Shown here one piece after another: positions 22,629-64,000 of a stretch of DNA of 64,000 nt. The notes beneath the pieces are model-generated. The model made no database searches and was not told the DNA's origin. It saw only the letters and a list, made by a program, of their open reading frames with translations. Source of the stretch: Thermosynechococcaceae cyanobacterium Okahandja (lineage in GTDB: Bacteria; Cyanobacteriota; Cyanobacteriia; Thermosynechococcales; Thermosynechococcaceae); assembly GCA_041530395.1 (NCBI GenBank), contig CP136945.1, forward strand, positions 186,001 to 250,000, read 5' to 3'. The first letter of the stretch is position 1. Every line of letters starts with the position of its first letter. Position numbers and translations under genes: made by a program.

Positions 22629-22672
22629 TGTAGCTTAAGATACAGTTTCCCTAGATAACGTCCCCTTAACCT
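22629..22672 (+). promoter_or_regulatory. NtcA-activated promoter of the urt operon
   Basis: TGTAGCTTAAGATACA at 22629-22644 is a perfect GTA-N8-TAC NtcA site (GTA 22630-22632, TAC 22641-22643). TAACCT at 22667-22672 fits the TAN3T -10 box, 23 bases after the site. This is the canonical class II NtcA layout, with the site centre about 41.5 bases before the inferred start near 22678. NtcA control of urt is known in other cyanobacteria, so urea uptake should rise when ammonium is scarce. Confidence 0.85.
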
Positions 22673-48482: not shown

Positions 48483-49847
48483 ATGGACGATTCATTACTA
48501 GCAGAATTTTTGCAACTCATTCGCCAGCAAACGGGCATTGCCATTCGGGCACAGGATACACCGCAACTGGCCAAGAAACTGCTCAGCCGCTGCCGTGCCC
48601 TTGAGTACCGCCATCCCCGTCAGTATCTTGCCCTCCTTGCCCATCCGGCATCCTTGGCCGCCCAGCAGGAATGGCAGCAGCTTGCGGACCTCATTACCAC
48701 TGGGGAGAGCTACTTTTTTCGTGACCAAGGTCAGATTAAAGTGCTGCGGGAAACGATTTTGCCCCACCTGATTGGCCGCCACCAGGGCGATCGCACCCTC
48801 CGCATTCTGAGTGCAGGCTGCTCCACCGGTGAGGAGATCTATTCCATCGCCATCCTCCTCAAGGAATTGATCCCTGATCCCGACCGCTGGCAACTCCACC
48901 TTGTGGGCTACGATCTCAGTCCACAGGCCATTGCCCAAGCACGAGCCGGGCTGTATGGCCGTTGGTCGTTTCGCGGTATGGATCCCACACTGCAACGGCG
49001 CTACTTTCAGGAAACGCCTCAGGGCTGGGTCATTAATGAAGAGTTGCGGCAGGGGGTACGTTTCCGTTGTGTGAATTTGCTGGCTCCGGAAGAGTACGAT
49101 CTGTTACCCGCCAGCGTTGATCTGATTATTTGTCGTAACGTCTTTATCTATTTTGACAGCACCGCCATTCAGCAAATCTTAGGCACGTTTGTGTCTCTGC
49201 TGCGTCCCCACGGCTATCTGTTAACCGGCCACACCGAACTACAGGGACAAGACATTAGCCCCCTAGACATCCTGAGCTACCCTGAATCGGTAGTGTATCA
49301 ACTGGGCGCTGATCCCCAGCCACCCCAAGCGCCAACGCCACCGCCAATCTCGGCACTAGAGGAAGCCCGTGCCGCCTTTGCTCTACGTAATTACACGCAA
49401 GCCTTAACCCTTGCCCAACAATGGCAAGCCCACCAGCCTAACGATCAGGCCTGTTTACTACTGATGGCGCAAATTTATGCCAATCAAGGGCGCTATACCG
49501 AGGCGATCGCCCTTAGCCAACAACTGCTCCAGCGAGATGCGGCCAACATTGATGCTCTATTACTGCTTGCGCATATTGCCCAAGAGCAACAAAATAAACC
49601 TCTAGCCAAAGATTACCTGCGGCGCATCATTTTTCTTAGCCCAGACACCATTGTGGCCTACGTCGAACTCATTGAACTGCACCTCAGCGAGCAGGAACTT
49701 GATCCCGTTCCGTCGCTACTGGCAACGGCGCAACTGCTGTTGCAGAACTGTCCACCCAATGAAATAATTTCCTTTCATCAAGGTATTACTGTGACCATGT
49801 TGCAACAGTATCTTAAACAACTGACAATCACACCCCTTGCCCCCTAG
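48483..49847 (+). CDS. cheR: CheR-type chemoreceptor methyltransferase with TPR tail
   Basis: Encodes 454 residues. The N-terminal 280 are the CheR methyltransferase: the family helical domain ending in TTGESYFFRDQGQIKVL, the SAM site LSAGCSTGEEIYSIAILL, and LIICRNVFIYFD. The rest is proline linker and TPR-like repeats (e.g. CLLLMAQIYANQGRYTEAIA), which in CheR relatives may target receptors. It methylates glutamates on the MCP to adapt the sensor. It begins 15 bases after the ATP-grasp gene, and the NtcA-like promoter of the taxis operon follows it, so cheR may be transcribed separately. Confidence 0.9.
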   Translation: MDDSLLAEFLQLIRQQTGIAIRAQDTPQLAKKLLSRCRALEYRHPRQYLALLAHPASLAAQQEWQQLADLITTGESYFFRDQGQIKVLRETILPHLIGRHQGDRTLRILSAGCSTGEEIYSIAILLKELIPDPDRWQLHLVGYDLSPQAIAQARAGLYGRWSFRGMDPTLQRRYFQETPQGWVINEELRQGVRFRCVNLLAPEEYDLLPASVDLIICRNVFIYFDSTAIQQILGTFVSLLRPHGYLLTGHTELQGQDISPLDILSYPESVVYQLGADPQPPQAPTPPPISALEEARAAFALRNYTQALTLAQQWQAHQPNDQACLLLMAQIYANQGRYTEAIALSQQLLQRDAANIDALLLLAHIAQEQQNKPLAKDYLRRIIFLSPDTIVAYVELIELHLSEQELDPVPSLLATAQLLLQNCPPNEIISFHQGITVTMLQQYLKQLTITPLAP

Positions 49848-49911
49848 AAGAAGTGTGATATACTTGCCTCGTTATCTAAATACCTGCCGTGTTATCATTA
49901 GCGCCCATAGC

Positions 49912-49956
49912 AGTGTAGTAATTAATACACTACACGTCATTTTATTACTATAAGAT
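49912..49956 (+). promoter_or_regulatory. NtcA-type promoter upstream of the chemosensory operon
   Basis: GTA (49915-49917), 8 bases, TAC (49926-49928) form an NtcA site inside a wider palindrome AGTGTA/TACACT (49912-49917 and 49926-49931). TAAGAT (49951-49956) fits TAN3T, 22 bases after the site. The site centre lies about 41.5 bases before an inferred start near 49963, the canonical activator position, and no -35 is visible. The same layout is seen upstream of urtA. This supports nitrogen control, not proof of it. Confidence 0.65.
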
Positions 49957-50197
49957 AGCTACTAAAGTTCATTAAAGTCAGTTAGGAGCCTAGGCTGTAA
50001 GCCTAATATTGCCTTGTTTTCAATGACTATTTGTAAAGTAGCTTTGTGCAGTTATTAAGCATACTGTCTTTGCGAGCGGGGAAGACTGCGCGATTGAGTA
50101 GTAGTACCACCAGATTAGCAGCACCCAAGAAATAGCGGTTCAGCACCGCTTTGTGGATCGAAAGTTGTCTAGTGTGTTTTGAAAAGGGGGAGTAACC
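49957..50197 (+). other. Long untranslated leader of the chemosensory operon
   Basis: About 235 bases separate the inferred start near 49963 from the ATG at 50198. The leader holds hairpins TAGGCT/AGCCTA (49991-49996 and 50000-50005) and AGCGGT/ACCGCT (50134-50139 and 50145-50150), with no convincing open frame. It may be a structured or regulatory leader. The remaining bases between 49848 and 49911 hold no gene I can see. Confidence 0.4.
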
Positions 50198-51331
50198 ATG
50201 CAAGCCTTTGAAGACGTTCGCCATTCATCAGCAAGTACCCTAGAAGCAGTGATGCCGCTGGCGCAACTGTTGCAGATGCTTCGCGATCAGCAGTTTACAG
50301 GGATTGTGCGGGTGGCTGCCCATGTTCCAGAGACAGGGCGGCACTTAGCCTATCACCTCAGTTTTTACCACGGCAACCTGACCATCGCGGCCAAGGAACT
50401 GCCGACACCGGAAGAGTTATTGCGGCTGCTGGGCAAAATTCTCAAGGTGGGGTTTATGGATACCCTGATGCAGTACGCCCAAAGCCGCACTGCCAATTAT
50501 TCCCATCGAGCGATTCTTGAAGCTGTGGTCAATACCCGCGCCCTTAGTTGGGAGGATATTGAAAAAGCCATTACCGAGCGATTAGTTGTCATCCTAGAAC
50601 GCCTTGCTCCCCACACCTGTACTGTTGAACCCCAGCCCCATCCCGACTGGGATCTCAGCTACGGCGAAATTCCCCATGGCATTAATGCCAACAGCCTATT
50701 AGAGCGCGTTAACAGTCGCAAAACCCTATGGCAGCAGTTGTATCCAGCTATTCCGTCCTTTGAAGCCATTCCCCGTCTGCACGAGGGGGCACTATCAACC
50801 GTTCACCATGAGGCAACGGCACAACACTTACAAGCGTGGGTGAATGGCGAAAACACCATTGCCGATATTGCCGAAAATCTTTATAAAGACTCCCTCGCTT
50901 TAGCCTCCCTTTACCTGCGCTGGGTAAATGATGGCCTGATTGGTTTTGTCACCAACGAGAGCAGTCCGGTAGGGCTGCCCGTTGTTTTAACCGTTGATGA
51001 CAGCCCAATTGTACAGGCGATGATTCGGCGTGCCTTGGGCGATCGCTACGAGGTTATTAGTGCTACCAGTGCGATTGATGCCCTGTCACTGCTAAATAAC
51101 CGGAATGTCTCACTCGTTCTTTTAGATGTAACGATGCCGGAAATTGATGGCTTTGAATTTTGCCGTACCATCCGCAAAATTGAAAAATTTAAGGACATTC
51201 CAGTGATCATGCTAACGGCCAAGGATGGCTTAATTGATCGCGCCAAAGGACATCTAGCAGGCACTAACTACTACCTGACCAAGCCCGTGGATCGAGAGGT
51301 ACTACTCAGTACGATTGAGAAATTTATTTAG
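50198..51331 (+). CDS. PATAN-domain CheY-like response regulator
   Basis: Encodes 377 residues. The N-terminal 240 match the PatA N-terminal (PATAN, DUF4388-like) domain: LAQLLQMLRDQQFTGIVRVA at the start. The C-terminal receiver (about 260-377) has VDDSPIVQAMIRRAL with the acid pocket, VLLDVTMPEIDGFEF with the phospho-accepting aspartate, and YLTKPVD with the lysine. Synechocystis PATAN response regulators (e.g. PixE) can bind the pilus motor PilB1, which suggests output on PilB here. The ATG at 50198 has GGGGGAGT upstream. It leads the operon. Confidence 0.85.
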   Translation: MQAFEDVRHSSASTLEAVMPLAQLLQMLRDQQFTGIVRVAAHVPETGRHLAYHLSFYHGNLTIAAKELPTPEELLRLLGKILKVGFMDTLMQYAQSRTANYSHRAILEAVVNTRALSWEDIEKAITERLVVILERLAPHTCTVEPQPHPDWDLSYGEIPHGINANSLLERVNSRKTLWQQLYPAIPSFEAIPRLHEGALSTVHHEATAQHLQAWVNGENTIADIAENLYKDSLALASLYLRWVNDGLIGFVTNESSPVGLPVVLTVDDSPIVQAMIRRALGDRYEVISATSAIDALSLLNNRNVSLVLLDVTMPEIDGFEFCRTIRKIEKFKDIPVIMLTAKDGLIDRAKGHLAGTNYYLTKPVDREVLLSTIEKFI

Positions 51332-51347
51332 CACTGGCTGCGCACGT

Positions 51348-52373
51348 ATGAACTACTTAACGTTGCGATCGCAGGGGCTAAGTTGTGTGTTGCCCCTATC
51401 GGTGGTGCAAGAACTCATTAACTTACCGGAGCTAACCCTCGTTCCTGAGACACCGGTTGATATTATCGGCATCATGAACGTGCGAGGCGAGCTAGTGCCA
51501 GTGATGCATCTGGGCTGTCGCTTGGGTATAGCTCATCCTCAATGCCACGCCACCGATGTGGTCATTCTCGTTGAGGCACTCGGCCTGCGACTTGGGGTAG
51601 TGGTCAACCAAGTGGAAGATGTCGTGAACATTGACCCTAGCGAGCTGTTGGAGGAACCCGATTACGGTCATCTTGGTGGAGTTAACACGGCCTTTGTAGC
51701 GGGCTTAGCCACGGTTCAAGACGAGTTGGCCATTGTCATTAATGTAGAAACGTTAATTCGAGAACCCGCTGCCGTGGCGGAATTCACTGTGTCTCTGCGT
51801 TCACCAGACCTTGAAGCCTCCCCCCAGTATGATTTCTATGCCCGCTATTGGCCAGCCGCAACCCCTGCGCAGAAAGCACTCTTAAAGGAGCGGCAACAGC
51901 GCCTCAGTCAAGATCAGGAAGATGCCGAGGCACTGGATCAGCAGCTAAGTGTGGGCGTGTTTGAACTGGGGGGCGAGCAATTTGCGGTTCCGTTAACGGA
52001 GATTCGCCAATTTATTGATTTGGGCAATGTTGTCCCCATTCCGGGAGCGCCTCCATTTATTATCGGTCACCTCCCTTTGCAGGGGGAGGTCATCCCTCTT
52101 GTGGATGTTCGCGAACCACTGCGCGTCAAGACATCTGCTATCCCCTTAAAAAAAGCCATCGTTGTCTATGTTAACTCAATCACAATTGCTATTTTAATCC
52201 AAGGAATCCAAGACATCATGACCTATCATTATCAGCAACTGCAACTGAGTTCATTTTTGTCGGTTCATGACAACGGTCATGTGGGTTCAATTATTCAAGA
52301 GGGAAAAGTTATTAAGCTGCTCAATCTCAAGCAATTATTCAGTAAGATGGTGCCATCCTTTGCCGCTGCTTAG
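51348..52373 (+). CDS. cheW: Double CheW-domain adaptor
   Basis: Encodes 341 residues with two CheW domains. The first (about 1-140) shows VVQELINLPELTLVPETPVD and IIGIMNVRGELVPVMHL, the SH3-like CheW core. The second (about 200-340) shows GVFELGGEQFAVPLTEIRQF and IIGHLPLQGEVIPLVDVRE. A charged, coiled linker (KERQQRLSQDQEDAEALDQQ) joins them. CheW bridges the chemoreceptor tip to CheA. The ATG at 51348 is 16 bases after the previous stop. A double CheW allows one protein to hold two array contacts. Confidence 0.9.
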   Translation: MNYLTLRSQGLSCVLPLSVVQELINLPELTLVPETPVDIIGIMNVRGELVPVMHLGCRLGIAHPQCHATDVVILVEALGLRLGVVVNQVEDVVNIDPSELLEEPDYGHLGGVNTAFVAGLATVQDELAIVINVETLIREPAAVAEFTVSLRSPDLEASPQYDFYARYWPAATPAQKALLKERQQRLSQDQEDAEALDQQLSVGVFELGGEQFAVPLTEIRQFIDLGNVVPIPGAPPFIIGHLPLQGEVIPLVDVREPLRVKTSAIPLKKAIVVYVNSITIAILIQGIQDIMTYHYQQLQLSSFLSVHDNGHVGSIIQEGKVIKLLNLKQLFSKMVPSFAAA

Positions 52374-52424
52374 GCTGTATCGTTATATGATTTATGTCAT
52401 TTGTAACATCTGTGAGGAGTCTTC

Positions 52425-53768
52425 ATGCGTATTCGTTATCAACTGTATTCTCTGATTGGTGCCATTTCCTTTATGGCCTTGACCAGCTTAGGGGTCGTTC
52501 TATTTAACCGTGCAGGGGACGAAGCCCTTGTAGTGAATGAAGCGGGCTTAGTGCGGGGGGGCAGCCAGCGCATTTTTAAGCTACGCCTTGCTGGGAACAG
52601 TATTGATGAATTAGCTGCTCGCAACGAGCGCCGAATTAATGCCCTGATCAATGGCGATGCTGAAATGGGGATTCCAGCCGCACGGGATCCCCAGTTTCGC
52701 AACCTGATGTTACAGGTACAATCCGAGTGGCAACAACTAAAACAGCAATTGCAGCAACCTCAAATTAATGTTGCACAACTCATCGAGGATAGTGAAGCAT
52801 TTTTTAAGCTCACGGATGAGGCCGTCAAAGCAGCAGAATTGGCGGCTAAAGCAAGTGAGGAACAAAATAAATTGATTGAAATCGTCCTCGTCTTTATAGA
52901 AATCATATTGGTTGTTACTGTAGCTTTAATTATTAACCGCATTATCACCTTACTATCACGCCTGTCGAGTCAAATTGCGACCTCGTCGAACGAAACGGCA
53001 GCGGCTCTAGCTGAACAAGAAAAAGTGATTGCCCAACAGGCGGCCTCGGTGAACCAAACAACCACCACCATGGAAGAACTCGGAGCCTCCTCGCGGCAGT
53101 CCGCCGAGCAAGCCGAAGCTTCCTCCGCAGGTGCTAAGCAAGCCATGGAACTAGCCACCTATGGCAAAGAAACGGTGCAGCGAACGGTTGCCGGCATTGA
53201 CACCCTAAAAGGGAATGTGATGGCGATCGCCGAGAAAATCATGCAACTGAGCGAGCAAACCACTCAAGTCACCGCTATTTCTGAGTTGGTGGCGGATATT
53301 GCCAACCAAACCAACATTCTTGCCCTCAATGCGGCTGTCGAAGCAGCCCGAGCAGGAGAGCACGGCAAGGGCTTTTCCGTTGTGGCGCAGGAAGTGCGCA
53401 AACTAGCGGATCAAAGTAAAAAATCGGCAGAAAAAATTACCACCCTCATTCGTGAAGTCCAAGGTGCCATGAACAGCACCGTGATGGTGACCGATGAGGG
53501 TATGAAAGCCACCAATGAGTGTGCAAAGCTAGCCCATGACACCTCCGAGACGTTTGCCACGATCGCCAACGCCATTGATGCGGTTCATTTGAACAGCCAG
53601 CAGATTGCCCTCAGTTCTAAACAGCAGGCGGTAGGGGTGCAGCAGGCCATTTCTGCGATGAATGCCATTAACTTGGGTGCGCAGGAAACGTCCACCAGTG
53701 TGTCGCAGATTAAGACCGCGACCCAGCAGCTTGTTGAAGCCGCTCAAACATTGCAAAGTACCATATAG
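52425..53768 (+). CDS. Methyl-accepting chemotaxis protein with PilJ/NarX-like sensor
   Basis: Encodes 447 residues. TM1 is about residues 7-27 and TM2 about 150-170, enclosing a helical sensor of about 120 residues. At 38-49 the motif [12 protein letters not shown] matches the N-x-A-G-x-x-R-x-x-S-x-R P-box of PilJ and NarX/NarQ domains, which bind nitrate; a later W102 in VQSEWQQL also fits PilJ. No HAMP domain is evident, so signalling passes from TM2 into the long coiled coil. The tip is [20 protein letters not shown]. The ATG at 52425 has a good GGAG nearby. It lies inside the operon. Confidence 0.9.
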
Positions 53769-53783
53769 TGCCTAATAGTACCT

Positions 53784-56030
53784 ATGTACATTGAAGATGA
53801 TGAGTTACGCTCCCTCTATCGCGCCGCCAGCAGTGAGCATCTGCAAGCGATCGAGGCTGGCCTGCTGGCGCTAGAAAGCAATCCTCAGGATCGCTCCCCC
53901 CTTGATCAACTGCTGCGGGAAGCGCATTCCCTAAAGGGAGACTCCCGCATGTTGGGGGTAACGGACGTAGAGGCGCTCATGCACCATGTGGAAGACATCC
54001 TCAGCCACTGGCGGCAAGGGCAGTTGGAACCATCCCCTACCCTGTTTGAGGCGCTCTACCGTGCCCTCGATGCCGTGAAAAAAATGGCCCATGAGGCGGT
54101 GACCGGCGAGCCAGCCAATCTCAGCCCCTTTCATATTGCGGCTGAACTGTTGCAATTTTTGCAGGGGGCACCCCCTGAGGTGGATGATTTAGATGCGTTA
54201 ATGGCGGCAACCCCCACGAGCATCTTTCCCGAGGCCACTCCTGAACGTCCGCCCGAGGATGACGGTGCCGCAGCCGTGACGACTCCAGTGAGTTCCCATG
54301 AGGACTATCGCATTGACAGTGTGCGCGTGGCCAGCCACACCCTAGATGCCCTAATGACCTCCATTGCCGATTTAACGGTGACCCAGCAACGCATTGCCCG
54401 GCAGCAGGAACTCATTGCCAAGGGGTTGGCGCACTGGGAACAGGCGCAGGTGCATCTGCTGGCGAGTCAGCGATTATTGCAGCCCCACCCCGAATTATTT
54501 GCCCTGCGGCAGCACTACGATCATCTCCGGCAGCAACTGGACGCCCTCGGGCGATCGCTCCAGCAATTAGAGGCGCAGGCAGACGTGGACGATGCGCATC
54601 TAACAGCAGTGGTGAATGGTCTTGAGAGGGACATCCAAAATTTGCAATTTTTACCCCTAGGAACGATCTTTAACCTGTTGCCGCGAGCCGTACGGGATAT
54701 TGCCAAACAACAAAACAAAGCGGTGCAACTCCTGATTGAAGGGGCAGAGGTTGCCGTTGACCGCCGCATCCTCGAAGGCATGAAAGCCCCCCTCACCCAT
54801 CTGGTGCGCAATGCCTTAGACCATGGCATCGAGTCACCCGAAGAACGTCAGCAGCAGGGGAAGCCGCCCCAAGCAACACTGACGGTACGGGGGCGCACCA
54901 ATGGCAACGAAGTGGTGATCGAAGTCATTGATGATGGCCGGGGTCTCGATCATGAGGCCATTAAGCGAACGGCGCTCCAGCGGGGTCTCTACAGCGCGGA
55001 AGCACTGGCGGCGATGAGTCGTGCCGAGATCGAAGCCCTCATTTTTGCGCCCGGATTTTCAACCCGTGCTCAGGTCAGTACCCTCTCCGGACGAGGAGTG
55101 GGGTTAGATGTGGTGCGAGCAAACGTTGAGGAACTCAACGGCACCATTGAGGTGATCTCGACCCCGGGACAGGGGTGCTGTTTCCGAATCACCCTGCGCG
55201 CTAATCGAGCCACCATCCCGGTGCTCACGGTGCGCTTGCAGGAGTTCCTCTATGGGTTACCCGTTGAGGCGATCGCCACCACCCTGCTGTTGCGACAGGA
55301 AGCCCTCCTGCTAGAGGGGGCAGAACCCACCCTGCTTTGGGAACAACGCCCGGTCGGTCTCCGTTGGTTAGCGGATCTCCTCCATCTAGAGGGGAACGCC
55401 CGCCACCAGTCCCAGTACCCCTGCGTGATTCTGCGCCATGGCGATCGCTATCGGGGGCTAATTGTCGATGAGATTGTCAATTTCCAGAACGTGCAGTTAA
55501 AGCCCCCCCATCCCTTACTGAGTGGCCTGCCCCATCTATTGGGGGTCACGGTTCTGGAAACGGGCGATATTTGCCATCTCCTCAAACCCAGTGCGTTGCT
55601 CGCCGCAACTGGGGGCGATCGCCCCCAACCCACCGCCGTCTCGACCCCGCCCACCAAGCCACGGATTCTCCTCGTCGAAGACTCTCTCCCGATTCGCACT
55701 CAACTACGGCGCATTTTAGAGCGGGCAGGGTATGAAGTGACTACTGCCGTGGACGGTGCCGATGGTTTTCAGCAGTTGCGCACCGGAACATTTAACGCCA
55801 TTGTCTCTGACGTGGAAATGCCCCAGCAAAATGGCATTGAAATGACCCAGCGCATTCGCCAACTGCCTGAGTACCAACGCTTACCGATTGTCTTGGTGAC
55901 CACCTTAGCAGCAGCTAGCGATCGCCAACGCGCCCTTGCCGCCGGTGCCAACGCCTACCTCACCAAGGGAAATTTTGACCAAACCCTATTACTAGATACC
56001 CTAGCGGAGCTAATTTATGAGCAAAATTAA
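53784..56030 (+). CDS. cheA: Hybrid CheA histidine kinase
   Basis: Encodes 748 residues. The P1 HPt domain carries the phospho-histidine in REAHSLKGDSRMLG (His48). A dimer/linker region runs to about 290, then the ATPase P4 with HLVRNALDHGIESPEE (N box), IEVIDDGRGLD (G1) and LSGRGVGLDVVRANVEEL (G2). The P5 CheW-like domain follows (VLTVRLQEFLYGLPVEAIAT), then a C-terminal receiver with LLVEDSLPIRTQLRRIL and VSDVEMPQQNGIEM. It phosphorylates response regulators on signal from the MCP via CheW. Its end overlaps the next gene by 14 bases. Confidence 0.93.
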   Translation: MYIEDDELRSLYRAASSEHLQAIEAGLLALESNPQDRSPLDQLLREAHSLKGDSRMLGVTDVEALMHHVEDILSHWRQGQLEPSPTLFEALYRALDAVKKMAHEAVTGEPANLSPFHIAAELLQFLQGAPPEVDDLDALMAATPTSIFPEATPERPPEDDGAAAVTTPVSSHEDYRIDSVRVASHTLDALMTSIADLTVTQQRIARQQELIAKGLAHWEQAQVHLLASQRLLQPHPELFALRQHYDHLRQQLDALGRSLQQLEAQADVDDAHLTAVVNGLERDIQNLQFLPLGTIFNLLPRAVRDIAKQQNKAVQLLIEGAEVAVDRRILEGMKAPLTHLVRNALDHGIESPEERQQQGKPPQATLTVRGRTNGNEVVIEVIDDGRGLDHEAIKRTALQRGLYSAEALAAMSRAEIEALIFAPGFSTRAQVSTLSGRGVGLDVVRANVEELNGTIEVISTPGQGCCFRITLRANRATIPVLTVRLQEFLYGLPVEAIATTLLLRQEALLLEGAEPTLLWEQRPVGLRWLADLLHLEGNARHQSQYPCVILRHGDRYRGLIVDEIVNFQNVQLKPPHPLLSGLPHLLGVTVLETGDICHLLKPSALLAATGGDRPQPTAVSTPPTKPRILLVEDSLPIRTQLRRILERAGYEVTTAVDGADGFQQLRTGTFNAIVSDVEMPQQNGIEMTQRIRQLPEYQRLPIVLVTTLAAASDRQRALAAGANAYLTKGNFDQTLLLDTLAELIYEQN

Positions 56031-56430
56031 AGTGGTTCTCATTGAAGACTCAGTCGTTGCCCTAGAAATCCTACAGCGACTCATTAACTCCTCCGAGGAG
56101 GTGGAGGTTGTGGGCACCGCCCTCGATGGGGTGTCAGGGTTGCAGGTCATTGAGCGCACGCAGCCGGATGTGATCTGTACCGATTTACAGATGCCCGGCA
56201 TGGATGGTCTAGAGTTTACCAAAGAAGTGATGAAACGCTTTCCGCGCCCCGTGCTTGTGATTAGTAATGCAGTACAGCCAACGGATGTGGACAATATCTA
56301 TAACCTCATGCAGGCGGGCGCACTAGATTTCTTCCCGAAGCCGACGACCGGCTCTGCCACCGACTACGAACGCCTGAAAAGCACCTTAGTCACCAAAATT
56401 CGTGTCCTCGCCAGCAAAAAAGCGCCCTAG
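56017..56430 (+). CDS. Stand-alone CheB-type receiver domain protein
   Basis: Encodes 137 residues, a single receiver domain: LIEDSVVALEILQRL (acid pocket), VICTDLQMPGMDGLEFTKEV (phospho-accepting Asp) and DFFPKP (lysine). It is closely similar to the receiver part of the next gene (VVCTDLYMKEMDGLEFTRQL), and the PKP ending is of CheB type, yet no methylesterase follows. It is likely a truncated duplicate used as a phosphate sink or competitor of CheB. It overlaps the end of cheA by 14 bases. Confidence 0.88.
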   Translation: MSKIKVVLIEDSVVALEILQRLINSSEEVEVVGTALDGVSGLQVIERTQPDVICTDLQMPGMDGLEFTKEVMKRFPRPVLVISNAVQPTDVDNIYNLMQAGALDFFPKPTTGSATDYERLKSTLVTKIRVLASKKAP

Positions 56431-56479
56431 CGTGCCGTCCTAAGCTATTGTGTTGGCTAAGACGTTGGATGGCACCTGA

Positions 56480-57514
56480 ATGTCAATCCGTGTTTTTTTG
56501 GTAGAAGATTCCCCGATTGCCCTGAATATTCTCAAGCAACTCTTACAGACTGCCCCGGATATCCTTGTCGTGGGCACCGCAGTCACTGGTAAAGAGGCAC
56601 TCCTGCGCATTCCAGAGTGCCAGCCGGATGTTGTCTGTACCGATCTCTACATGAAAGAGATGGATGGCCTAGAGTTTACCCGTCAACTGATGGCGCGATC
56701 GCCCCGGCCTGTTTTAGTCATTAGCGTTGCTGTGGGTGAAGCACAAACGGCCTTTGAACTGCTCCAAGCAGGTGCAACCGATGTCTTTCCCAAGCCTAGC
56801 AGTGGTTTAATGGCAGACTACAACCGCCAAGAACTGATCAACAAAATTCGGGTTCTATCAGGGGTCAAGGTGTTTACCCGCCCCTTACAGTCCCGTACGA
56901 CCACAGGGGCACCGGCGCGATCGTTGCCCCCAGTGGCTGCCCAGCATACGGCCATTGTGGGCATTGGTGCCTCAACCGGCGGCCCACAGGCGATTGCCAA
57001 GATTTTGCAACAGCTTCCGGCTCATTTTCCGGTGCCGATTCTCTGTACCCAGCACATCAGTGTTGGGTTTTTAAGTGGCCTAGTGGCTTGGCTGGCACGA
57101 GAGACAAAGCTGCGGGTCACGATTGCCAATGGCGGTGATACCCCCCAAGCGGGGGTTGTCTATTTTGCTCCCGATAGCTGGAATTTAGAAGTGGATCGCC
57201 GCGGTAAGCTGGCCTTGAGTGGCGCCGTCGCCGGTGAACGTCATTGTCCATCGGTGAATGTCATGTTCCGATCCCTCGCTGCCTTTTATGGGGAAGCCAC
57301 CATTGGTGTGCTCCTCACTGGCATGGGGGATGATGGTGCCGCCGGGATGCAGGCGATCGCCCGAGTGGGAGGGGTCACGATTGCCCAAGACGAAGCCACA
57401 AGCGTTATTTTTGGTATGCCCAAGGAGGCGATCGCCCTTGGCGCCGCCCGATACATTCTGCCCATCGAGCGAGTGGGAGCCGTTTTAACTGAATTGGTGG
57501 CTGTTACCCCTTAG
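56480..57514 (+). CDS. cheB: Chemoreceptor glutamate methylesterase CheB
   Basis: Encodes 344 residues. The receiver is residues 1-125, then a linker, then the methylesterase. The catalytic serine is in VGIGASTGGPQAIAKILQQL, the histidine in LCTQHISVGFLSGLV, and the aspartate in LLTGMGDDGAAGMQAIAR. It removes methyl groups from the receptor and balances CheR. It closes the operon 50 bases after the stand-alone receiver. Together with cheR 8 kb upstream this gives a full adaptation cycle. Confidence 0.95.
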   Translation: MSIRVFLVEDSPIALNILKQLLQTAPDILVVGTAVTGKEALLRIPECQPDVVCTDLYMKEMDGLEFTRQLMARSPRPVLVISVAVGEAQTAFELLQAGATDVFPKPSSGLMADYNRQELINKIRVLSGVKVFTRPLQSRTTTGAPARSLPPVAAQHTAIVGIGASTGGPQAIAKILQQLPAHFPVPILCTQHISVGFLSGLVAWLARETKLRVTIANGGDTPQAGVVYFAPDSWNLEVDRRGKLALSGAVAGERHCPSVNVMFRSLAAFYGEATIGVLLTGMGDDGAAGMQAIARVGGVTIAQDEATSVIFGMPKEAIALGAARYILPIERVGAVLTELVAVTP

Positions 57515-61050: not shown

Positions 61051-63072
61051 ATGGTCAACACATCACCTTCTTCTGCCCGTAAGGCGATCGCCCTGCGGAA
61101 AGCCGGCAACCCTACAGAGCGTGCCCTTGTGGCCTCCGGCTACGCTAGCCTTGAGCAAGTGCGCGAAGCCATGAATGCTGCCCGCAAAACCGGTAAATCT
61201 CTCGTGGTGGCTCTACAAGAGATTACGGGTACCACGATGCCCCCCGATGTGTTGCGCCAGTACCATAAGCAGCAACTTTTTGAGCTGAAGGTCATCTACG
61301 GTGTTGACTGCCTTGACCCCGAGCTAAACCGCTTTCCCACCGATCAAATTGAGGAACTGATCAACACCATCTTGCCGGTGGACACCTGCCGCACCTACCA
61401 AGTGATCCCCATTGCCAAGTATCCCAACGCCGATCCCCCCTACGTCTTAGTGGCAATGGTGGATCCCGATAACCTGCAGGCCATCGATAACATTAACCGC
61501 ATTCTGCGGGGACATGGTCTGACCCTAAAGCGCATGGTCATTACCCTTGAAGATTATCAGCGTCTCATTGACCCGATTCTTAACAAGCAAGTTGCAGAAA
61601 CAGCCGCCAGCAAAAATGCACCCGCGGCCCTAGGGGAAATTAATATTGAGGACGACATTGATGCCATTGGTGGTCTCGATGACGTTCAAGCGGATCAGGA
61701 AGTTGACCTTGTCGATGCCCTCAAAGGGGCTGAAGACGCACCGATTATTGCCCTTGTGAACAAAATTTTAGCAAAGGCGCTGACAGAGGGGGTCTCTGAT
61801 ATCCACATTGAGCCCCAAGAAGAGTATCTACGGGTGCGCTTCCGCAAAGATGGCGTGCTGCACCAAGCCTTTGATCCTCTCCCCAGAAAAATTGTGCCTG
61901 CGGTGGTCTCCCGCTTTAAGATTCTGGCGGATCTCGACATTGCCGAGCGCCGTGCTCCCCAAGATGGCCGCATCCGCAAAATGTTTCAGGGGCGGCGGGT
62001 GGACTTTCGGGTCAACACCCTGCCGAGCCGCTGGGGCGAAAAAGTGGTATTGCGGATTCTGGATAACTCCGCCACCCAGTTGGGGCTAGACAAACTCATT
62101 ACCGACCCCGAGAGCCTTGCCATTGTCCGTGAAATGACCAAGCGCCCCTTTGGCCTCATCCTAGTGACGGGGCCAACCGGGTCAGGGAAAACCACAACGC
62201 TTTACTCGGCCTTAGCGGAGTGTAACAGCCCGGGGGTCAACATCAGTACCGCCGAAGACCCGATTGAATATACCTTGCCCGGCCTGACGCAGGTGCAGGT
62301 GATCCGCGAAAAAGGGATGGACTTTGCCTCCATTCTGCGTGCCTTCCTGCGGCAAGACCCGGACGTGATTCTGGTGGGGGAAACCCGCGACAAAGAAACG
62401 GCCAAAACGGCAATTGAAGCGGCGCTGACCGGTCACTTAGTGCTGACCACCCTCCACACCAATGATGCCGCCAGTGCCGTGGCGCGTCTTTCGGAAATGG
62501 GCGTAGAGCCCTTTATGGTGTCCGCCTCACTGATTGGGGTGGTGGCCCAGCGGCTGATGCGGCGGGTGTGCTCTGAGTGTCGCATTCCCTATACCCCCAC
62601 CCCCGAAGAACTGGCGCGGTTTGGGCTATCGGCCTCCAAGGGGGTTAACCTCACCCTCTACAAGGCCAACAAACTCACGGCTGAGCAATTACAGGCTGCC
62701 AAGGCCAGTGGTCAGCCCATCTGTAGTAAGTGTGGTGGCGTGGGCTACAAAGGTCGCTGCGGTGTCTATGAAATCATGCGGGTGACCGAACGCCTTCAGA
62801 GCCTGATTACTGAAGGTGCCCCGACCGAGCGTATCAAAGAAGTCGCGGTGGAAGAGGGCATGAAAACCCTGCTGGCCTACAGCCTCAACCTTGTTAAGGA
62901 GGGGGTCACCACCCTTGAGGAAGTAGAGCGGGTTACCTTTACCGATACCGGTCTCGAATCAGAACTCAAAGCCAAGCGTAAGAGTTCATTAACCTGCCGT
63001 ACCTGTGGTGCCGAAGCACAGCCGGAATGGTTAGAATGCCCCTATTGTTTAACGCCGCGCTTTATAGATTAG
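61051..63072 (+). CDS. pilB: Type IV pilus extension ATPase PilB
   Basis: Encodes 673 residues of the GspE/PilB family, which powers pilus extension at the cytoplasmic face. The N-terminal N1-type domain precedes a long acidic linker (ALGEINIEDDIDAIGGLDD). The ATPase has GPTGSGKTTTLYSA (Walker A), VILVGETRDKETAKTAIEAA (Walker B) and ALTGHLVLTTLHTND (His box). Cysteine pairs (CSEC and CSKCG) are the zinc fingers of the C-terminal part, and CRTCG/CPYC ends the protein in an extra zinc ribbon. The ATG at 61051 fits. pilT lies 60 bases downstream, so both motors may share a transcript. Confidence 0.95.
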   Translation: MVNTSPSSARKAIALRKAGNPTERALVASGYASLEQVREAMNAARKTGKSLVVALQEITGTTMPPDVLRQYHKQQLFELKVIYGVDCLDPELNRFPTDQIEELINTILPVDTCRTYQVIPIAKYPNADPPYVLVAMVDPDNLQAIDNINRILRGHGLTLKRMVITLEDYQRLIDPILNKQVAETAASKNAPAALGEINIEDDIDAIGGLDDVQADQEVDLVDALKGAEDAPIIALVNKILAKALTEGVSDIHIEPQEEYLRVRFRKDGVLHQAFDPLPRKIVPAVVSRFKILADLDIAERRAPQDGRIRKMFQGRRVDFRVNTLPSRWGEKVVLRILDNSATQLGLDKLITDPESLAIVREMTKRPFGLILVTGPTGSGKTTTLYSALAECNSPGVNISTAEDPIEYTLPGLTQVQVIREKGMDFASILRAFLRQDPDVILVGETRDKETAKTAIEAALTGHLVLTTLHTNDAASAVARLSEMGVEPFMVSASLIGVVAQRLMRRVCSECRIPYTPTPEELARFGLSASKGVNLTLYKANKLTAEQLQAAKASGQPICSKCGGVGYKGRCGVYEIMRVTERLQSLITEGAPTERIKEVAVEEGMKTLLAYSLNLVKEGVTTLEEVERVTFTDTGLESELKAKRKSSLTCRTCGAEAQPEWLECPYCLTPRFID

Positions 63073-63132: not shown

Positions 63133-64000
63133 ATGGATCTAATGATTGAAGACCTAATGGAGCAAGTCGTTGCCAACGGTGGCTCAGATTTGCATATTTC
63201 GGCGGGGCTGCCCCCCTACATCCGCATCAGTGGCAAGTTGACCCCCACCGACTATGAACCCTTGACACCAGAGCAGTGCCAACGGCTGATCTTCAGTATG
63301 CTCAATAACACCCAGCGCAAAAACCTTGAGCAAAACTGGGAGCTAGACTGCTCCTACGGCGTGCGCGGACTCGCTCGCTTTCGGGTGAATGTGTATAAGG
63401 ATCGTGGCACCTACGCCGCCTGCTTACGCGCCCTCAGTTCCAAAATTCCCACCTTTGAGCAACTGGGCCTGCCCAACATTGTCCGCGAAATGAGTGAGCG
63501 ACCCCGCGGCCTCATCCTAGTGACCGGCCCCACCGGTTCAGGGAAAACCACCACCTTAGCGGCAATGATTGACCTGATTAATAAAACCCGTGCCGAGCAC
63601 ATCCTCACCATCGAAGACCCAATTGAATTCGTCTATGAGCCAATCAAGAGCCTCATCCACCAGCGGCAAGTGGGCGAAGATACCAAGAGCTTTTCCAATG
63701 CCTTGCGAGCCGCCCTACGGGAAGACCCGGATATTATTCTGGTGGGTGAGATGCGGGACCTAGAAACCATTCAGTTGGCCATCTCAGCGGCGGAAACGGG
63801 TCACTTGGTCTTTGGTACGTTGCACACCAGTTCCGCCTCTCAGACGGTGGATCGGATGGTGGATGTGTTCCCGCCTGAGCAACAGCAACAAATTCGGGTG
63901 CAGCTTTCTAACTCCTTGGTGGCGGTCTTTAGCCAGACCTTGGTGCCGAAAAAGAACCCTAAACCCGGGGAATTTGGCCGGATTATGGCTCAAGAAATCA
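63133..64000 (+). CDS. pilT: Type IV pilus retraction ATPase PilT, 5' part
   Basis: The visible 289 codons of the gene run off the right edge. LVTGPTGSGKTTTLAAMIDL is Walker A, TIEDPIEFVYEPIKSLI the Asp box, ILVGEMRDLETIQLAISAAE Walker B, and HLVFGTLHTSSASQTVDRM the His box, as in PilT. PilT disassembles the pilus to pull the cell. The N-terminal LMEQVVANGGSDLHISAG is the PilT/PilU opening. PilU is the main alternative. The ATG at 63133 follows GAGGAA. It forms a probable operon with pilB. Confidence 0.93.
   Translation, partial: MDLMIEDLMEQVVANGGSDLHISAGLPPYIRISGKLTPTDYEPLTPEQCQRLIFSMLNNTQRKNLEQNWELDCSYGVRGLARFRVNVYKDRGTYAACLRALSSKIPTFEQLGLPNIVREMSERPRGLILVTGPTGSGKTTTLAAMIDLINKTRAEHILTIEDPIEFVYEPIKSLIHQRQVGEDTKSFSNALRAALREDPDIILVGEMRDLETIQLAISAAETGHLVFGTLHTSSASQTVDRMVDVFPPEQQQQIRVQLSNSLVAVFSQTLVPKKNPKPGEFGRIMAQEI

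Follow-up and report, generated by a model that had tools for sequence, protein, structure and literature searches.

A candidate nitrogen-linked chemosensory cluster with a PilJ-type receptor, CheR and CheB in a thermophilic cyanobacterial family

The 64,000-nucleotide stretch analysed here (hereafter the window; contig CP136945.1, positions 186,001 to 250,000) belongs to Thermosynechococcaceae cyanobacterium Okahandja, whose genome is a single contig of 2.82 Mb, and carries a chemosensory gene cluster at positions 48483–57514. An earlier note, made from the letters of the window, had described this cluster as a contiguous set of seven genes running from CheR to CheB, and the Pfam profile search agrees: all genes lie on the + strand and their domains match those proposed. 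The features, in window coordinates, are as follows.

48483..49847, +, CheR-TPR methyltransferase (PF01739, 158.5 bits, plus TPR matches), judged to lie outside the NtcA-type promoter unit
49914..49929, +, NtcA-type site TGTA-N8-TACA, TGTAGTAATTAATACA (GTA-N8-TAC in 10/14 orthologous upstream regions)
49951..49956, +, putative −10 box TAAGAT (TAN3T), 22 bases downstream of the NtcA-type site
50198..51331, +, PATAN-REC response regulator (REC, 85 bits; DUF4388, 21.5 bits with a long insertion)
51348..52373, +, double CheW protein (PF01584, 154 bits over two stretches; start ATG at 51348)
52425..53768, +, methyl-accepting chemotaxis protein (MCP) with transmembrane segment TM1, periplasmic PilJ-type four-helix sensor, TM2 and signalling domain (PF00015, 132 bits; PF13675, 36.7 bits)
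52536..52583, +, P-box of the MCP sensor, residues 38–53 (from the alignment of orthologues; aligned to McpN and PilJ)
53061..53090, +, MCP methylation consensus, residues 213–222 (sole perfect consensus match)
53784..56030, +, hybrid CheA-REC kinase (Hpt, HATPase_c, CheW, Response_reg)
56017..56430, +, lone receiver, CheB-receiver-like (51% identity to the CheB receiver)
56480..57514, +, CheB methylesterase with receiver (PF01339, 201 bits; PF00072, 74 bits)

Ten CheW-domain matches in the genome resolve into this cluster and three further che regions located elsewhere, making the window cluster the fourth chemosensory system of the genome. By CheB, the closest named relative is a Thermosynechococcus metagenome-assembled genome (79%). 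General promoter and terminator scans returned match numbers no higher than those in shuffles.

The NtcA-type promoter read upstream of PATAN-REC in the earlier note proved to be conserved, spacing-specific and of class II geometry. Within the window, TGTA-N8-TACA sites were observed 4 times against 0.31 expected. Genome-wide, the motif occurs 29 times and its reversed control 28 times, so a single site proves nothing, and a lone site was rejected as proof; conservation carries the weight. We compared 14 PATAN-REC upstream regions of 450 bases each from 12 genomes (11 of the family plus G014; G numbers denote genomes and L numbers loci). GTA-N8-TAC was found in 11 of these regions, or in 10 after dropping a G280 match at −439 that falls inside cheR, while each of the other spacings between 4 and 13 occurred in 0–3 regions. 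These site counts are not independent, because the site in G179 and G404 is one and the same, presumably inherited from a common ancestor. In shuffles, a mean of 0.93 regions carried the site and 0/500 reached 11; as background, 13 of 294 other upstream regions contained it. None of the frames of at least 150 residues in this genome's other three che clusters is preceded by such a site.

The spacing to the −10 box points the same way. In five of six genus promoters, window included, TAN3T follows 22 or 23 bases past the site, placing the latter near −41.5. This is the arrangement described for canonical NtcA promoters, with GTAN8TAC about 41.5 bases before the start and TAN3T about 22 bases further on (PMC3898017); transcription in the window would then start near 49963. 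The promoter of G405 has the site and no TAN3T at 20–24 bases. Eleven class II patterns were counted in 604 kb of genus loci (302 kb, both strands), the studied promoters among them. As positive controls, TGTA-N8-TACA also lies at 22629–22644, just upstream of the urea transporter gene urtA, and at about position 3281 of L237, upstream of this genome's nirA-type gene. In L169, outside the 14 regions, the motif stands between a REC gene and the MCP. The gene spacing indicates a promoter for PATAN-REC to CheB, with cheR lying upstream outside the unit; NtcA is predicted to bind it at TGTAGTAATTAATACA.

The receptor sensor, which the earlier note had likened to PilJ and NarX domains on account of its P-box, scores 36.7 bits with PF13675, above the cut-off of 26.6. 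A PilJ match (E 0.01) was obtained in all 19 chosen orthologues, whose alignment has 13 invariant columns, eight of them in the P-box (N38, G41, R44, G45, Q48, R49, K52 and L53). The P-box is therefore kept among orthologues, N38, G41 and R44 being invariant in 19/19 rows, though its presence is partly by choice, as the rows were picked for a PilJ-like sensor. We modelled the sensor with AlphaFold2 from five sequences (pLDDT 85) and compared the model with the PDB using Foldseek; the top ten matches were all McpN or NarQ chains, with McpN first, and PilJ ranked far below (rank 23, E 0.25). With VIA-align, McpN gave a Z score of 16.8 and a root-mean-square deviation of 1.5 over 112 residues, above other helical bundles. 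The G-x-x-R nitrate motif is present in the sensor, together with the asparagine three residues before its glycine. A phmmer search of PDB sequences with just the sensor as query returned no relevant match. Assignment of the receptor sensor domain to the nitrate-sensor type is supported by these data.

A single stretch of the MCP, from residue 213 on, fits the methylation consensus perfectly. In the family, the residue pair at this site is E-E in all nine MCP rows from clusters with CheB and E-G in G391, G389 and G386, the three clusters without CheB. Across all 34 MCP rows, an E/D/Q residue followed by E/Q is kept in 24 of the 27 with CheB in the locus vs 1 of the 7 without it (Fisher p 0.0004; the rows are not independent, contig ends cut several of the loci, and one truncated row was dropped). 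The exceptions are two of three L168 receptors and one L013 receptor, which have lost the pair despite CheB, and one L166 receptor, which keeps it without CheB. The cluster is a case in which CheB and the receptor methylation site seem to have been lost together. Since the site disappears where CheB is missing, the full adaptation cycle suggested in the earlier note receives indirect support. CheR, CheB and the consensus site are all present in the window, and the receptor would be predicted to undergo methylation.

The lone receiver is the best-conserved part of the cluster. In 12 relatives it is 71–97% identical to that of the window, compared with 46–84% for CheA and 31–74% for the double CheW protein in the 11 relatives having it; identity was used instead of dN/dS, for which synonymous sites were saturated in many pairs. 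In four genus genomes it reaches 88–97%, vs 80–89% for the CheY-like proteins of another cluster of this genome in seven genus genomes. It also persists in clusters that lost CheB. CheY contacts its target through the helix-4 face. Within helix 4, delimited by analogy with CheY, 14 of 19 positions are invariant among 14 lone receivers, and 8 of these are unlike the CheB majority, giving a signature of about N-x-V-[QH]-P-x-D-x-D-N-I-[YF]-N-L-M-x-A-G-A-L-D-F-F-P-K-P. By the same analogy, this face may engage a private partner.

Comparison of gene order in relatives, as the earlier note had proposed, showed that the CheR to CheB order is shared by G179, G280 and G401, and also by G405 (with extra frames behind CheR), G404 (with PATAN-REC in two frames) and G390 (with two lone receivers); in all six, a CheR orthologue lies upstream of PATAN-REC. 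No CheR was found within 20 kb around the cluster in G402 and G014. The CheB orthologue is absent genome-wide in G391, G389 and G386; there is no CheR in the G386 stretch, and in G391 and G389 the contigs stop less than 1 kb upstream of PATAN-REC, so that the presence of CheR there is not decidable. The two open PATAN-REC frames of G404 (L157, 14298–15454) represent either a real break or a sequencing error, and in G405 a second CheR TPR tail (L155, 15026–16168) stands next to a methyltransferase frame that lies between CheR and PATAN-REC. G402 carries an additional PATAN-REC and MCP pair directly upstream of the cluster (L154, 3264–6072), with its own NtcA-type site at −63.

In the genus (11 genomes), MCP and CheB orthologues are intact in five: this genome (G000), G402, G405, G179 and G404. 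Across the family, the MCP orthologue, defined by at least 45% identity across the whole length, occurs in 11 of 29 genomes and a full CheB orthologue in 8 of 29. A phylum sample of 386 genomes contained the sensor in 9. A receiver resembling that of CheB or the lone protein (E 1e-20) was found in 47 of the 386; among these 47, a lone receiver frame of 138–150 residues occurs in five (G000, G179, G280, G014 and G070), the rest being CheB-sized or longer. The subtype combining a PilJ sensor with a lone receiver is therefore rare among cyanobacteria, while CheB-type systems as such are not exotic there. Cyanobacterial CheR-TPR proteins were already reported in 2012 (PMC3447774), and together with the 47 genomes they make the earlier remark that published cyanobacterial taxis systems lack CheR and CheB an overstatement.

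Around the cluster, G405 has ldpA and an R3H protein (Pfam), with neighbour frames alike in size and order in G179, G404 and G407; a remnant of CheB and the lone receiver, indicating a decaying cluster, sits at the ldpA-side locus of G407 (L159, 8579–9963). In G402 the surroundings are leuS and an outer membrane efflux protein, and a LAGLIDADG match, perhaps an intein, lies inside a GDP-mannose dehydratase frame (L154, 16135–18240). In the window, pilB starts at 61051, 3.5 kb past the cluster as the earlier note had observed, and a PilT-like frame, read from the bases, begins at 63133. The pilus link drawn from this position did not hold in relatives: the 20-kb stretches round the cluster in the four other genus carriers contain no pilB, and among the stretches compared pilB adjoins the cluster in this genome only. 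We rejected the positional argument, as the rSAM-GT2 pair downstream is kept in seven genomes and is never then followed by pilB; the ATP-grasp gene upstream has different neighbours in all five genomes examined. Because the pilB neighbourhood is not conserved, pilus output now rests on the weak PATAN label of the response regulator, whose action on the type IV pilus motor is presumed. PATAN regulators of Synechocystis have been reported to bind PilB/PilC (PMC12288463).

We propose the following mechanism. Under nitrogen shortage, NtcA would switch on the PATAN-REC to CheB unit. The periplasmic PilJ-type bundle, whose P-box presumably sits on the dimer axis as it does in McpN and NarQ, would bind a small anion, with nitrate or nitrite the likeliest, and the two CheW domains would couple the receptor to CheA. 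CheA would phosphorylate PATAN-REC (acting on the pilus motor), the lone receiver, its own receiver and CheB; the lone receiver could act through its own helix-4 face as a private second output or as a brake, and CheR and CheB would reset the receptor by methylation. The cell might in this way compare nitrogen supply over time and steer or regulate its type IV pili. The parts, their order, the promoter pattern, the fold and the tie between methylation site and CheB are seen in the sequence, while NtcA binding, ligand, phosphate flow, methylation itself and pilus output are predictions. That the array is nitrogen-starvation-induced and adapting is likely. Taken as a whole, as a dedicated array built under nitrogen starvation that reads a small anion and steers or regulates type IV pili, the proposal leaves us evenly divided. 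With respect to the earlier idea of nitrogen taxis driving type IV pili, the nitrogen part is considerably reinforced by the promoter and the nitrate-sensor fold, the pilB neighbourhood falls away, and nitrate is a candidate ligand.

Several observations weigh against this proposal. Besides the lack of genome-wide motif enrichment, the exact site was not found near PATAN-REC in G280 (one mismatch, at −266), G401 and G014, nor in the PATAN-REC regions of L166, L012 and L022, which stand outside the 14. Five of the 11 genus genomes are without the cluster, and one (G407) has only the decayed remnant. The NarQ match of the sensor model (Z 14.3) does not stand out from other helical bundles, which reach 13.9, and Pfam recognised no HAMP domain linking TM2 to the signalling domain of the MCP, although two of three paralogous MCPs scanned in this genome do have HAMP. 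The N-terminal part of PATAN-REC scores below the DUF4388 cut-off of 25, and 4 of 8 orthologues match DUF4388 at E 0.01 vs 3 of 3 paralogues of this genome; hhalign against those paralogues gave a probability of 7% (E 0.005).

The strongest alternative keeps NtcA control and lets the sensor read a cue other than nitrate or nitrite, namely a different anion, a protein partner (pilin, for instance) or a peptide, along the lines suggested for Pseudomonas aeruginosa PilJ. By profile comparison the sensor is nearer PilJ (E 3e-7) than McpN (E 0.11). By eye it has 7 of the 10 fixed positions of the McpN-type N-box [IVL]-[ND]-x-A-G-x-Q-R-M-L-[ST]-Q, with G, G in place of the M, L of R-M-L, so that R-G-[GA]-[TS]-Q-R replaces R-M-L-S-Q. 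(The N-box score was rejected as a test of nitrate binding, the NarX consensus and the non-binder PilJ likewise reaching 7/10.) Degenerate P-boxes occur in the second G402 receptor (NETHRVRESGQR), which loses G and has no PilJ match at 1e-3, and in G390 (KEVGLLRGDAEH), which loses N. Moreover, G405, listed as 99% complete, keeps the cluster and P-box and has urtA, yet it has no NarB (no PF00384 protein) and no NrtA orthologue, only a 53% paralogue, with a draft gap possible and NirA not searched; the other four genus carriers have both NarB and NrtA. Against a non-nitrate cue, the sensor is structurally nearest McpN, with PilJ low in the Foldseek ranking, and retains N and G-x-x-R where PilJ has G at the N position. 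We regard this alternative as a tenable minority view. For the same reasons (the N-box, the profile proximity to PilJ, the degenerate P-boxes and G405), nitrate is a good guess, not a result, and its standing as the ligand is about even.

A second alternative is an alternative-cellular-function (ACF) pathway through which nitrogen-starved cells would adjust aggregation, polysaccharide or cyclic di-GMP, with no taxis. CheR-TPR proteins are described as typical of ACF clusters (PMC3447774), a point that also counts against our proposal, and pilB lies beside the cluster in this genome only; however, the Pfam matches of the cluster include no GGDEF, EAL or other enzymatic output domain, and the PilB/PilC binding reported for Synechocystis PATAN regulators favours a pilus output, which leaves an ACF role unlikely. 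Finally, that the conserved palindrome is read by a CRP-family protein other than NtcA would fit the motif being no commoner genome-wide than its reversed control, but is very improbable given the preference for N8 with TAN3T at 22–23 bases, which is the published NtcA layout (PMC3898017), and the motif's recurrence ahead of urtA and of the nirA-type gene.

Returning to the nitrogen-starvation array, its furthest-reaching form would be a nitrogen-hunting sense with memory in cyanobacteria: an array present only in starvation, an external nitrogen oxyanion read by a new P-box subtype (N-x-A-G-x-V-R-G-G-T-Q-R-x-x-K-L), adaptation by methylation, and pilus output by a private receiver evolved from that of CheB. 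We put this forward tentatively, as a minority expectation. Most published studies of taxis in cyanobacteria deal with light. Among open-licence papers on nitrogen taxis or CheB/CheR in cyanobacteria, screened mostly by title, no title concerned this cluster, and by term counts the main text of a 2025 review of cyanobacterial pili mentions neither CheB nor nitrate. With a conserved NtcA-type promoter, an adapting array and a nitrate-sensor fold combined, nitrogen taxis becomes open to direct test in Thermosynechococcus, for which transformation methods have been published.

Among known systems, the genome's three remaining che clusters, which we take to correspond to tax1–tax3, and the Synechocystis tax1 (Pix) and tax3 (Pil) systems share with the window cluster a PATAN-type regulator, CheW, an MCP and a hybrid CheA, the Synechocystis systems in a type IV pilus context. 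The Synechocystis tax loci are not known to carry CheR or CheB. The three clusters of this genome differ from that of the window in having no CheB or CheR match in their 20-kb stretches, no NtcA-type site and a separate CheA clade; the clade of 27 rows that contains the window CheA includes none of their CheA paralogues, in a tree to which a long-branch warning applies. The Pil-Chp receptor PilJ of Pseudomonas aeruginosa resembles our MCP in its PilJ domain, the nearest by profile, and in feeding a pilus-related pathway; unlike our MCP, it has two PilJ domains with the P-box N replaced by G, and it was reported not to bind nitrate (PMC6381276). The nitrate sensor kinases NarX and NarQ share the fold and the P-box core with G-x-x-R, within the motif A-I-N-x-A-G-S-L-R-M-Q-S-Y-R-L given for them (PMC8199190), but are kinases with HAMP, GAF-like and DHp parts. 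McpN (PA2788), the nitrate chemoreceptor of Pseudomonas aeruginosa and the best structural match, differs in having R-M-L where our sensor has R-G-G and in having been predicted to feed the Che pathway (PMC6381276), and our MCP has no HAMP match. McpN is otherwise alike in its PilJ-type periplasmic bundle, in the retention of N-x-A-G-x-x-R and S-Q, and in being tied to nitrogen shortage: it is described as acting under nitrate starvation only (PMC6381276).

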